NCBI GenBank assembly: GCA_017889705.1
Contig: JAGGAB010000001.1
Location: 1-64,000 of the forward strand
Length of the DNA: 64,000 nucleotides
Direction: 5' to 3'
DNA from: Bacillota bacterium
Lineage (GTDB): Bacteria > Bacillota > Negativicutes > Sporomusales > Sporomusaceae
Part shown: one piece after another, positions 5,514-58,835 of the stretch
How the letters are laid out: every line of letters starts with the position of its first letter
How positions within the stretch are numbered: position 1 is the first letter of the stretch
Notes under the pieces: model-generated
The model's input: only the letters and a program-made list of their open reading frames with translations
Database searches by the model: none
What the model was told of the DNA's origin: nothing
Position numbers and translations under genes: made by a program

Positions 5514-5554
5514 TATTAAGTAATTTAAATATGGTATTAAGCAGAAGCCATCCG

Positions 5555-5655
5555 CTTCTCACCTTACAGCGCTATAATGCTGTTAGTAAGGTTATATAAA
5601 CAATATTTTATTGTGCTATGCGCGGGTGGTTTATGCCACCCGCGTTTTTATTTAA
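5555..5655 (+). promoter_or_regulatory. Probable ribosomal-protein leader (L20-type) of infC operon
   Basis: The leader holds an imperfect hairpin (ACCTTAC...GTAAGGT with AGC/GCT inside, about 5562-5594) followed by a strong terminator. In Bacillus the infC-rpmI-rplT operon is attenuated by L20 binding its leader. The arrangement here is consistent with that, but the L20-binding geometry was not verified. Confidence 0.55.
5621..5653 (+). terminator. Attenuator terminator upstream of infC
   Basis: CGCGGGTGG (5621-5629) and CCACCCGCG (5636-5644) form a perfect 9-bp stem with a 6-base loop, followed by TTTTTATTT. It lies inside the leader, about 40 bases before the infC start, so it must be read through for expression. 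Confidence 0.88.
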
Positions 5656-5685
5656 TTCGAAAAAATATTTAGGAGGTGAGCGGCA

Positions 5686-11108: not shown

Positions 11109-11136
11109 TTGAATAATAGGTTGTATACAGTACAAT

Positions 11137-11365
11137 GAGGAAGACAGTAGGTTAACCGCGTTTTCTACAGGGAGGCTGCCGCCAAAGATTGAGAGCGGCA
11201 CGAAAAACAGTTAACAGAAGTTCACTTCCGAGTACCTGGGTTGAAGAGATATTCTTGTGTAGGCCTGGCGTTTTTTCCGCGTTATTGGAAATAGAGTATA
11301 ATTAGGGTGGTACCGCGAAATCAAGACTTTCGCCCCTTGGGGCTGAAGGTCTTTTTATTTTTATT
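11137..11365 (+). promoter_or_regulatory. T-box riboswitch with phenylalanine specifier TTC
   Basis: The T-box signature AGGGTGGTACCGCG is at 11304-11317. Stem I is drawn from GGAAG (11139-11143) with CTTCC (11225-11229), GTTAAC (11151-11156) with GTTAAC (11210-11215), and the apical GCCGC/GCGGC. The loop on the 3' side reads AGAAGTTCA, with TTC (Phe) at 11221-11223. GGGAGG on the other strand lies in the distal part. It controls pheST by tRNA-Phe charging. Confidence 0.92.
11323..11360 (+). terminator. T-box attenuator terminator before pheS
   Basis: AGACTTTCGCCCC and GGGGCTGAAGGTCT form a long stem over a two-base loop, followed by TTTTTATTTTT. It competes with the antiterminator at 11304-11317. 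Confidence 0.9.
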
Positions 11366-41962: not shown

Positions 41963-43168
41963 TTGAGGTGGGAAAATTTCACCAAGTTTTTAGTGATTGT
42001 AGTTGCAATTCTCGCTGTAGCCGGCTTTTATATGAAGCCACTAGCCTTATCCATCAAGCAAGGGCTTGATTTACAGGGCGGAACACATGTTGTATTGGAA
42101 GCTTCTGATACGGTTGATACCAAAGTAGATGACGATGCTATGAAACGTGTAGTTAGTATTCTTGAACGCCGTATTAACGAGCTGGGGCTTACTGAACCAA
42201 TTGTTCAGCGCCAGGGGGACCGCAGGGTTATTGTTGAACTCCCCGGTGTTAAAGACCCTGAAAAAGCAATTGAGATGTTAGGCCGCACCGCTTTAATGGA
42301 GTTTCAGGATGAGAGCGGTAACGTAGTATTAACCGGTAAAGACTTAAAAGACGCCAGAGCACAGATTGACCAAGGCGGCCAAAAACTGGTGTCTATCGAA
42401 TTCACATCAGAAGGTACCCAAAAGTTTGCTGATTTGACTGCAAGAAGTGTTGGTAAACATATTGCAATACTTTTAGACAAACAAGTATTGACAAATCCGG
42501 TAGTAAATGAACCGATTCCTGGCGGTAAAGCGGTTATTTCCGGTAATCGTTCTATTGAAGAAGCCGAGCGGCTGGCAATTCTCCTCAGATCAGGTGCGCT
42601 GCCGGTTAAGGTTGATGTTTTAGAAACAAGGACAGTTGGTCCTAGTTTAGGGGAAGATTCTAAAGAAAAAAGTATGCAGGCCTTTGTAATTGGCATTGCT
42701 GCCATCGTTATTTTCATGCTGCTTTTTTATCGGATTTCCGGTTTTATAGCCAATATAACACTAATTCTCTTTGTGTTGTTACTGCTATTTAGCTTAAAAA
42801 TGCTTAATGCCACATTGACCTTGCCGGGTATTGCCGGTATCATCCTGTCAATGGGGATGGCTGTTGATGCCAATGTGCTTATCTTTGAACGGTTTAAAGA
42901 AGAATATCGTAACGGGAAAACACTGCGGGCAGCTATGGATGCAGGCTTTAGTCGTGCTTTTGCTACCATATGGGATTCTAATATAACCACTTTGATTGCT
43001 GCTGCCGTGCTGTTTTTCCTGGGAACAGGTACAGTTAAAGGGTTTGCTGTTACCTTGGCCTTGGGGATCGTTTTAAGTATGTTTACCGCCATAACGGTTA
43101 CGCGTTATGTACTCAAAATGCTGATTCATTCCAATATTATTAAAAATGGCAAGTTGTACGGGGCGTAG
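41963..43168 (+). CDS. secD: Protein translocase subunit SecD
   Basis: Membrane subunit that uses the proton-motive force to pull exported proteins from SecYEG. 401 residues, six membrane helices: the first at about 9-25, then the large extracytoplasmic P1 domain (DLQGGTHVVLEA onward), and helices 2-6 from about 230. The RND motifs GMAVDANVLIFERFKEE and the GFSRAFATIWDSNITTLIAA segment are typical. TTG 41963 lies 7 bases after GGGGGAT and gives a short N-terminus. secF follows after 13 bases. Confidence 0.95.
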   Translation: MRWENFTKFLVIVVAILAVAGFYMKPLALSIKQGLDLQGGTHVVLEASDTVDTKVDDDAMKRVVSILERRINELGLTEPIVQRQGDRRVIVELPGVKDPEKAIEMLGRTALMEFQDESGNVVLTGKDLKDARAQIDQGGQKLVSIEFTSEGTQKFADLTARSVGKHIAILLDKQVLTNPVVNEPIPGGKAVISGNRSIEEAERLAILLRSGALPVKVDVLETRTVGPSLGEDSKEKSMQAFVIGIAAIVIFMLLFYRISGFIANITLILFVLLLLFSLKMLNATLTLPGIAGIILSMGMAVDANVLIFERFKEEYRNGKTLRAAMDAGFSRAFATIWDSNITTLIAAAVLFFLGTGTVKGFAVTLALGIVLSMFTAITVTRYVLKMLIHSNIIKNGKLYGA

Positions 43169-43181
43169 GGGGGGAGAAAAC

Positions 43182-44087
43182 ATGAAATTTGATATTGTTC
43201 ATAAACGCAAATGGTGGTTTTTACTCTCTGCGCTTTTTTTAATTCCTGGATTAATCTCAATGGCAATACAAGGCTTTAACTTAGGAATTGATTTTACCGG
43301 CGGCACTTTACTTGATCTCAAGTTTGCACAGCCTGTTGCGGTGGGCGAGATACGAGAGGTATTAAAAGACTACCAACTGGAAGGCAGTACCATTCAGCTA
43401 TCTTTAACTGGTCAGGAAACTAAGGCCAATAATGTGTTCATTCGAACTCACGTACTCAGTGAGGAAGAACGACGTAATGTTCTTGGTGGTTTAGAAACAA
43501 AACTTGGAGCTTTCGAAGTTCTAAGAGTGGAAAAAGTCGGTGCTGTAATTGGTTCAGAATTAACATTAAATGCTATTCTGGCACTAATAATATCATGGGT
43601 GTTGATGATTGTGTATATCAGTTACCGGTTTGAATATAGATTTGCTTTTGCCGGTATTGCTGCATTGGTGCATGATATATTTATTGTACTTGGTGTATTT
43701 TCTATTTTACAAAAAGAGATTGATGCTACATTTGTTGCCGCGCTGCTGACAATAGTCGGTTACTCCATCAATGACACTATTGTTATCTTTGACCGTATCA
43801 GAGAAAATCTCAAAACCTATAGGAAAAGTGATGGCCTTGCCGAACTTGTTAACCGCAGTATCTGGCAAACCATGACCCGTTCCATTTATACAGTTCTTAC
43901 TGTTATTTTTGCAACTGCTGCCTTATATATATTTGGCGGCGAAACAACCAAAAACTTTTCACTGGCGCTATTAATCGGTTTTGCCAGTGGCGCTTATTCT
44001 TCAATCTTCAACGCCAGCCAAATCTGGGTAACCTGGCGCGAATATGACGAAAAGCGCAGAACGGAAAAACGCATTAAAGGTGAGTAA
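43182..44087 (+). CDS. secF: Protein translocase subunit SecF
   Basis: Partner of SecD, encoded separately here (fused in some Firmicutes). 301 residues with six membrane helices, LGIDFTGGTLLDLKF after the first helix, and VGYSINDTIVIFDRIRENL and RSIWQTMTRSIYTVLT in the later region. ATG 43182 follows GGGGGGA. The longer frame from 43146 overlaps secD and has no binding site. A terminator follows, then the folded region at 44161. Confidence 0.95.
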   Translation: MKFDIVHKRKWWFLLSALFLIPGLISMAIQGFNLGIDFTGGTLLDLKFAQPVAVGEIREVLKDYQLEGSTIQLSLTGQETKANNVFIRTHVLSEEERRNVLGGLETKLGAFEVLRVEKVGAVIGSELTLNAILALIISWVLMIVYISYRFEYRFAFAGIAALVHDIFIVLGVFSILQKEIDATFVAALLTIVGYSINDTIVIFDRIRENLKTYRKSDGLAELVNRSIWQTMTRSIYTVLTVIFATAALYIFGGETTKNFSLALLIGFASGAYSSIFNASQIWVTWREYDEKRRTEKRIKGE

Positions 44088-44108
44088 TCATATAGGTCTA
44101 ACAAAGGG

Positions 44109-44145
44109 GTCATCGCACTAAGTAATTAGCGCGATGGCTTTTTCT
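44109..44145 (+). terminator. Terminator after secF
   Basis: CATCGC-A-CTAA (44111-44121) pairs with TTAG-C-GCGATG (44126-44136) and is followed by GCTTTTTC. Confidence 0.82.
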
Positions 44146-44160
44146 ATATATTATAAGTTT

Positions 44161-44580
44161 GAGGGACGGGGATGACTTAAAAATGATAATCTTAACTACA
44201 AGACGTATAGCCTCAAAGAAATGGTGCCTCCTATAAGGCGGCACCGCGGTCCTGTCGTAACTCCCGTAACCCAACGGCCTTTGCCGGAAAAAGCGGTCCG
44301 CAGGGGAAAATTCGGGTGATATTCCGTTAAGAAACCCGTACTGTTTGAGCGCAGCGAGTTTACGGGTTTTAGGAATATCGCCCGGATTTTCAGATCCGTG
44401 CATGGAAATGGAGACTATATCATACAGCAATGAAAGCTGCTCTCTAGCGGAACAGGTTAGCGTGTGGAGGTTTTAGGCCTAGACCTTTTGTTACTTTTAG
44501 GGCAATGCTAAAAGTAAGTCCGTCTCTTTTGCACAAATGACCCCCTGCATCAATATCATATAAGCAAGCAGGGGGGCGAT
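44161..44580 (+). ncRNA. Unassigned large structured RNA / leader of the YkvI-like gene
   Basis: No gene fits these 420 bases, but they are full of pairing. GGTGCC-T-CCT (44223-44232) pairs with AGG-C-GGCACC (44236-44245). CGGC/GCCG closes CTTT at 44275-44286. A long rod pairs CGGGTGATATTCC (44313-44325) with GGAATATCGCCCG (44372-44384) and, inside it, AAACCCGTA (44332-44340) with TACGGGTTT (44361-44369). TTACTTTTAG (44491-44500) pairs with CTAAAAGTAA (44508-44517). The ends can pair (GAG..ACGG..ACTTA with TAAGTCCGTCTC). Last, CCCCCTGC (44541-44548) pairs with GCAGGGGG (44568-44575), hiding the next gene's ribosome binding site. No known riboswitch class was recognised. Confidence 0.6.
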
Positions 44581-44585
44581 TACAT

Positions 44586-45614
44586 ATGGGGGTTATTTTA
44601 TCGGCGCTGTCATTGGCTATTGTGCATATTGCCGGCGATAATGTGGCCGTAGTGCCGGCTATGGCTGCATTGCTGGGTAACGGAATTTATTCCACTGTAT
44701 TTTTTGCGTATATGATATTTGGCTCGATAGTTGCTGGTATATCTGCCTGGATAGGGGTAAAAAGTAAACACGAACTGACCACAGTGGTAAGTCAGTTATT
44801 CGGGATACGCGGAAAAACAATGCTGGCACTGGCTATACTGGCGGTATCATTACCGGCCAGCGCATTAACCGGCGGTTATTTTGCCGGACAATTGCTGCAA
44901 GACTTAACTGGCATATCCTATAAATGGCTGGTTCCTATTTATATTATACTATGCTGTATTTTAGCCGCCGATTATGGGAAAGAGCTGCTGTATATTTCTA
45001 ACTACGTAGCTCTTTTACTTATTCCCATTATAGGTATTATGCTAATACAATTACCTGAGATCAATAGTGCTATATCTATTGTTAATGTACTAACAATAGA
45101 TTGTATTAGTTGGCCTTTAGTAATTGCGCTTATTGGCTATAATGCCGGCGGAATGCGTTCGATATTGATTGTTGAAACAGGAACTTATTTTTCCCACAAA
45201 AACTACACCGGAGTCTTTTTAGTGGTGTTGGCTAAGATATTTGAAGGTTTTTTCACCTTACTATTAGCACATATCGCTGTGTCAGGCGGTGGCTCAGGTT
45301 TTATACCCTTATCAAAAATTGCCAATCAGGTTTTTGGTTCCTGGTTGGCTTTTGCTTTCAACAGTATTTTGGTAAGCATATTGCTTAACACGATGGTTCC
45401 AGCCATGCTGGTAAACGCAAAACAACTCAGCATAATTACAAGGCTGCATTTTAAGAATACGTTAATCTTGGCAGCTTTATTAGTATGGGCCGGTAGTCTT
45501 TTCAGTTTGGAGTTAATTCTTACGCTTATGAGTGTCACCGGGCTCTTCATGATTGTCTTTATTGGGGTAGTGGCTTACTTTCTACATAAACAAAGAGAGA
45601 ATAAGTTAAAATAA
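44586..45614 (+). CDS. YkvI-like multi-span membrane transporter
   Basis: 342 residues with about ten hydrophobic segments and no signal peptide. The organisation resembles YkvI-type proteins of the amino acid/polyamine/cation permease fold. Notable are IVHIAGDNVAVVPAMAALLG at the start and GYNAGGMRSILIVETG midway. The substrate is unknown. The AGGGGGG ribosome binding site (44570-44576) lies in the 3' arm of a perfect 8-bp hairpin, so translation is probably controlled by the leader. The N-terminus is short relative to relatives I recall, which may begin with another helix. The DUF456 gene follows after 42 bases. Confidence 0.65.
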   Translation: MGVILSALSLAIVHIAGDNVAVVPAMAALLGNGIYSTVFFAYMIFGSIVAGISAWIGVKSKHELTTVVSQLFGIRGKTMLALAILAVSLPASALTGGYFAGQLLQDLTGISYKWLVPIYIILCCILAADYGKELLYISNYVALLLIPIIGIMLIQLPEINSAISIVNVLTIDCISWPLVIALIGYNAGGMRSILIVETGTYFSHKNYTGVFLVVLAKIFEGFFTLLLAHIAVSGGGSGFIPLSKIANQVFGSWLAFAFNSILVSILLNTMVPAMLVNAKQLSIITRLHFKNTLILAALLVWAGSLFSLELILTLMSVTGLFMIVFIGVVAYFLHKQRENKLK

Positions 45615-58615: not shown

Positions 58616-58835
58616 AACTAAAGATATGCGCTCAGCCCTGCTGTGTGCGTGTAATGTCGATGTTTTGAGCCAACACTTTTACTGCGGGAGCCTCGTCTCT
58701 AGTTATGGCGTGTATGCCCTGTTTTGAGGGGACACATAAAATAAATAGGCGGGCACCCACCTGCCGAGGGCAGGTTCAAAACAGAGGCGATACGGCATAG
58801 TGGGGATTGGGCGTTTCAAGAAAATATCTTTTAAG
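58616..58835 (+). ncRNA. ssrS: Probable 6S RNA
   Basis: A rod-like RNA of about 215 bases downstream of aspS, the position of bsrA (6S-1) in Bacillus. The ends pair (AAAGATAT 58620-58627 with ATATCTTT 58824-58831), then GCCC (58635-58638) with GGGC (58809-58812). Large internal loops follow, then CTGTTTTGA (58719-58727) with TCAAAACAG (58776-58784) and an apical hairpin ACCTGCC/GGCAGGT (58759-58775). A closed stem, central bubble and long terminal arm is the 6S plan, mimicking an open promoter to hold RNA polymerase. Identity rests on fold and synteny, not on a covariance-model score. Confidence 0.7.

Follow-up and report, generated by a model that had tools for sequence, protein, structure and literature searches.

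The interval between secF and a YkvI-like gene in this Sporomusaceae genome probably holds, inserted before ykvI, one copy of a MITE-like mobile element that is dispersed and non-autonomous and whose fold as a single strand is conserved. The interval lies in a stretch of 64,000 nucleotides (positions 1 to 64,000 of contig JAGGAB010000001.1), here called the window. This reading is based on the many copies of the element, on empty sites, on covariation, on a patchy distribution, and on the ends and duplications seen in Marinilabilia rubra. As a single strand, the core of about 165 nt is predicted to fold into a branched structure, in which helix P1 encloses P2, a hairpin of three pairs, and a long rod; both the CGTTAAG internal loop of the rod and its apical loop of about 20 nt are conserved, and a separate 3' hairpin would follow. 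The copy would have entered the secF-ykvI interval, which in congeners has a plain terminator, and would have brought a terminator-like hairpin at its 5' end. It may have moved in trans, by a putative transposase. Gene 3' ends may tolerate the element because of the terminators it carries, and its conserved loops could be recognised by a protein or an RNA. When only one genome is read, a mobile interspersed repeat can be mistaken for the leader of a riboswitch.

All features of the locus lie on the + strand. The upstream neighbour secF (43146..44087) matches SecD_SecF_C. The element begins with a terminator-like boundary hairpin, GGGGTCATCGC..GCGATGGC and then a T tract (44106..44138), which recurs upstream of several copies and lies upstream of the start given in the original prediction. 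The variable 5' part (44139..44254) contains a GGTGCC/GGCACC hairpin at 44223-44245; other copies hold an additional module of about 110 nt there. The conserved core (44255..44393), recognised by repeat alignment and covariation, includes GGCC, the P1 5' arm AAAAAGC (44288-44294), the P2 hairpin TCCGCAGGG (44297-44305), and a rod with the CGTTAAG internal loop at 44325-44331 and the loop CTGTTTGAGCGCAGCGAGTT at 44341-44360. The rod arms TTCGGGTGATATTCC (44311-44325) and GGAATATCGCCCGG (within 44372-44393) and the inner helix of AAACCCGTA (44332-44340) and TACGGGTTT (44361-44369) are present as first described, and covariance model R1 scores the window copy at 104 bits (44287-44404). A 69-nt long-form module (44394..44462) occupies the place of CTTT in short-form copies. 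It is followed, in 44463..44517, by TGTGGAGG..GGCCTAGACC and the 3' hairpin TTACTTTTAGGGCAATGCTAAAAGTAA (44491-44517), the stem of which covaries between copies. By-eye comparison with empty sites and other copies places the approximate 3' end of the window copy at 44518..44526; it is without the 3' boundary hairpin present in a number of other copies. The native ykvI leader (44527..44585) lies outside the element and carries the hairpin of CCCCCTGC and GCAGGGGG that covers the ribosome site. The gene itself (44586..45614) encodes a membrane protein for which no match was found in Pfam or NCBIfam, and the name YkvI-like is that of the original prediction. What had been taken for a single leader of 420 bases therefore consists of a mobile repeat (about 44106-44526) and the native ykvI leader (44527-44585). 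The strong folding noted at the outset holds: the fold of 425 nt scores -149 kcal/mol, whereas shuffles average -121.16 (sd 5.69), a z of -4.89, and none of the 100 shuffles was equally stable.

When 44088-44585 was compared by BLAST with its own genome, 74 rows were returned, and 40 of 62 candidates were scored. The core copies aligned number 41, window copy included, and this is a lower bound because an additional copy (L245) turned up later. The core at 44255-44393 is common to nearly all of them. Twenty-one of the 41 have the long form with the 69-nt module, in which the P1 3' arm is lost; 19 have the short form, with CTTT instead, and one is truncated. All 15 same-genus rows parsed (of 20 loci fetched) are of the short form. 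Upstream parts are modular: the module of about 110 nt gives 19 rows in the own genome, 16 directly upstream of listed cores, one upstream of the L245 core and two without a listed core. Fuller copies have a second terminator-like hairpin at the 3' end, and their outer sequences are imperfect inverted repeats of each other (GGGGCTGTCGC/GCGACAGCCCC); the 3' half of this pair is missing from the window copy. The element measures roughly 320-640 bp and is branched. A coding signal across the region would have counted against the original prediction, but none common to the copies was seen; ORFs of at least 70 aa over the core occur in some copies only, on either strand and with varying length. One degenerate copy of the own genome (L258) holds an inserted repeat resembling the GGGACAGG family.

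The genomic context was counted for 76 parsed copies from five groups, including 32 of the 41 own copies, using simple ORF calls within about 1-2 kb. Copies not parsed by the regular expression (9 of 41 in the own genome, and some in relatives) were left out of this count and of the alignments. The copies lie between convergent genes in 25 cases, between two genes on their own strand in 23, between two genes on the opposite strand in 15 and between divergent genes in 3; one neighbour is unknown in 10. Convergent sites are clearly in excess of divergent ones (p 2.7e-5), and own-strand and opposite-strand positions between same-strand genes do not differ (p 0.26). Divergent sites being rare and the two same-strand orientations alike, a 5' leader function is not the general role of the element. 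In a scan of nine loci, copies were found near a 5S rRNA gene at L013, L019, L023 and L046 of the own genome, and at L108 of G035, which belongs to a different bacterial family.

Sites without the element were found within the genus. secF was found in eight of nine genus genomes, own included, and G002, which is 58% complete, gave no secF match; the congeners include Sporomusa ovata, S. acidovorans, S. silvacetica and Sporomusa sp. KB1. A core profile search showed the element to be absent from the secF-ykvI site in all seven congeners with secF and from the lgt-ridA site in 8/8 congeners, so that the profile matched at the own secF and lgt loci only and at none of the 15 congener loci. By eye, the secF-ykvI interval of the seven congeners shows a short terminator ending TTTTTTGCAC and then the ykvI ribosome site GCAGGGGGCGAT, which has one extra G in G004 and in the own genome; the native ykvI leader is recognisable in these congeners without the repeat. 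Similarly, in seven of eight congeners lgt is followed by a short terminator and then ridA, the site being rearranged in G002. At both sites the congeners' terminator is absent from the own genome, with hairpins of the element in its place, and simple insertion does not account for these missing terminators. Covariance model R1 found no copy in congener G005.

The fold is conserved through compensatory change. For 62 short-form copies RNAalifold gave 26 pairs, 18 of them with compensated double changes. A structure of 49 pairs, taken from one row, was tested on 27 non-Sporomusa copies, an alignment without any Sporomusa row and without L057, L059 and three rows of G035 that have an insert of about 17 nt. 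In these copies 94.8% of cells pair and 23 of the 49 pairs show double changes; all five covariation measures were reached by 0 of 500 shuffles, which related sequences can exceed. Sliding the structure by 1-3 columns brought pairing to 38-56%. With Sporomusa included (35 copies, from 61 trimmed rows), double changes are seen in 20 of 28 rod and P2 pairs; here 29 of 500 shuffles did as well on one measure, further pair types, and part of the rod is displaced between groups in this alignment. The arms of P1 co-vary between genomes, as AAAATAC/GTATTTT, AAAATGC/GCATTTT, AAAAGAC/GTCTTTT and AACATAC/GTATGTT. The covariation proposed as a check was therefore obtained, stems being kept in relatives through compensatory change. 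No weight is given to the outer GGCC/GGCC pairing, which is weak: 76.9% of its cells pair and there is no double change. In the three G035 copies (L106, L112 and L115), the insert of about 17 nt is a mini-hairpin in the rod apex.

Of 300 Negativicutes genomes searched with R1, 27 match, the own genome among them; they belong to 13 of 97 genera, and 19 have at least five matches, with no more than 12 scored per genome. The exact loop pattern is found in 52 stretches of named genomes, from Sporomusa (S. ovata is a carrier), Anaerospora, a Bacillota MAG, Marinilabilia and Anaerophaga, the last two belonging to Bacteroidota. For 14 of 15 Bacteroidota loci (L168, cut at a contig end, was left out of this scoring), R1 gave 75-86 bits in eight cases and 35-36 bits in six, and these six scores come mostly from the loop, i.e. 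the part selected by the search pattern. Among 296 evenly drawn Bacteroidota genomes four match R1, the M. rubra genome among them. The distribution of the core is patchy in both Negativicutes and Bacteroidota. No match was obtained in viral contigs with one exact pattern, and none was found in phages; plasmids gave two short matches, from Sporomusa termitida and Aureibacter tunicatorum. Strongly covarying and spread over two phyla, this repeat family has no match in Rfam 15, and no description of it was found in the literature searched, largely without subscription papers.

The core could also be a new structured RNA class, present in two phyla and riding different mobile frames, the ends of the element differing between Sporomusa and Marinilabilia. 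Its CGUUAAG internal loop and UGUUUGAGCGNAGCGAGUU apical loop would then be bound by a dedicated protein or RNA. We regard this as a tentative and less probable reading. If it were true, the unit under selection would be the core, not the transposon ends.

The MITE-like reading that we favour draws on the ends found in M. rubra. All seven copies examined there have the ends CACTGGTGTCCGG/CCGGACAATAGTG, with a few changes, 316-429 bp apart, and they are flanked by perfect 9-bp direct repeats in six cases and near-perfect ones in the seventh. Terminal repeats with 9-bp duplications are a mark of DNA transposition. Both ends were found at 7 of 15 Bacteroidota loci, all from M. rubra; since at the other eight, some of them cut by contig ends, no more than one end was found within 3 mismatches, the terminal-repeat evidence is limited to M. 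rubra. No consistent target duplication was seen in the flanks of the Negativicutes copies. In the own genome the end pattern has 26 matches, versus 13 for the reversed control. At the ten of these 26 loci that were inspected no autonomous partner was seen; L245 and L258 were the only ones with complete end pairs around a core, and they enclose no ORF of at least 120 aa. M. rubra also gave 26 end matches, and none of the six ORFs scanned there is a transposase.

REP and BIME sequences, associated with RAYT transposases, are extragenic hairpins with inverted pairs. The present element likewise consists of extragenic hairpins, with inverted pairs in some genomes: head-to-head pairs with loops about 180-235 bp apart occur at L271, L272 and L273, in stretches of G055, G040 and G015. 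It is, however, much larger, and no linked RAYT was found. We rate movement of a REP/BIME-like element by a RAYT (Y1) transposase as an unlikely alternative, although the hairpins, the head-to-head pairs in the G015, G040 and G055 stretches and the lack of consistent target duplications in Negativicutes speak for it. The own genome does contain one full-size Y1 transposase gene (L201:1159-1917, C106), which we take to be RAYT-like from its size and flanking repeats, and one fragment. But the repeats that flank this gene, GGGACAGG..CTGTCCC, are its own and form a separate family, and no copy of the element lies within about 1.5 kb on either side, so that the candidate mover is present but unlinked. 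In addition, the terminal repeats with 9-bp duplications of the M. rubra copies are expected for transposases other than RAYT (Y1).

Among described repeats, the BOX elements of pneumococcus appear closest in kind (PMC3049150), the likeness being one of description. In that source, BOX elements of Streptococcus pneumoniae are modular, highly base-paired interspersed repeats, thought to be parasitic and non-autonomous, that can join 5' or 3' untranslated regions (PMC3049150). The present element is also modular, highly paired and interspersed. Its core is found in Negativicutes and some Bacteroidota, whereas the BOX range given there is S. pneumoniae, to a lesser extent S. mitis, and S. suis for related elements (PMC3049150). 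The pneumococcal SPRITE, described there as resembling a Rho-independent terminator (PMC3049150), recalls the terminator-like hairpins at the ends of our element, which differs in being branched and roughly 320-640 bp long. By the definition of MITEs quoted there (PMC3049150), the element is MITE-like in being non-coding and highly paired and in the terminal repeats and target duplications of its M. rubra copies. It is so, too, in its many dispersed copies and in the empty sites of relatives. It differs from MITEs in that Sporomusa copies have only an imperfect outer repeat with no detected target duplication, and in that the internal fold is conserved across phyla and the ends differ.

Selection on each locus was also considered. 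A family of trans-acting RNA genes could be kept by selection at individual loci, movement being only its origin. Pairs are compensated among copies of one genome, with 34 broken pair cells among own copies where 94.1 would be expected, and variation is lower in unpaired columns (0.0436) than in paired ones (0.0696). Departures to G.T exceed those to A.C, counted as distinct cases, both in own copies (12 vs 4, p 0.077) and in others (16 vs 8, p 0.15), which weakly suggests folding of the + strand. Nevertheless, in a comparison of flanks that covered part of all copies (40 own loci, namely 39 fetched and the window; 20 loci of the same genus; 40 others), no two loci were seen to agree in both flanks and in the strand of the element, and 21 of 41 own copies are without the P1 3' arm; we therefore judge this explanation improbable. 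A possible shared site, L045/L117/L122, was not confirmed: L045 and L117 have flanks alike on both sides with the element on opposite strands, and L045 is not matched by the loop expression.

Long near-perfect palindromes are a substrate of quasi-palindrome correction. The rod is such a palindrome, and the covariation might come from a mutation process, template switching, rather than from selection of the fold. We consider this doubtful: covariation extends to the short P1 helix, whose arms have P2 and the rod between them, conservation is higher in unpaired columns than in paired ones, and the G.T versus A.C asymmetry, though weak, also goes against it. For the mobile element proposed here, the strong covariation and, in the own genome, a higher conservation of unpaired columns than of stems make the choice between a functional RNA and a recognised folded single-stranded DNA a testable one.

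The last hairpin of the original prediction, CCCCCTGC at 44541-44548 with GCAGGGGG at 44568-44575, does exist in the window sequence, but its pairing across eight species is within chance. The mean probability of being unpaired at the ribosome site is 0.264, versus 0.318 (sd 0.073) for upstream shuffles, and 73 of 300 shuffles were equally low, although the five G's of the ykvI site are mostly paired in seven of the eight species. Sequestration of the ribosome site as a conserved feature was accordingly rejected, pairing being no stronger than in shuffles, and this 8-bp hairpin in native sequence is best read as composition. A new riboswitch or other cis-regulatory leader of the ykvI-like gene, with a translational expression platform hiding the ribosome site, is very improbable despite the heavy folding and the hairpin over that site, since the element is missing at this place in 7/7 congeners, has at least 41 copies in either orientation relative to their neighbours (both flanking genes run in its orientation for only 23 of 66 copies with both neighbours assigned), and does not include the hairpin. 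Any effect of the element on ykvI would be incidental.

That no known riboswitch class or T-box is present was correctly stated: Rfam gives no gathering-level match in the region, and under lax settings over 44080-44700 the best E value is 0.16. The sequence GGCGGCACCGCGG near 44238 resembles a T-box; Rfam has no match there. Known RNAs elsewhere in the window are a T-box leader at 11126-11340, its only T-box match, an L20 leader at 5533-5657, a 6S RNA at 58632-58810 and a tRNA-Met at 17-92.
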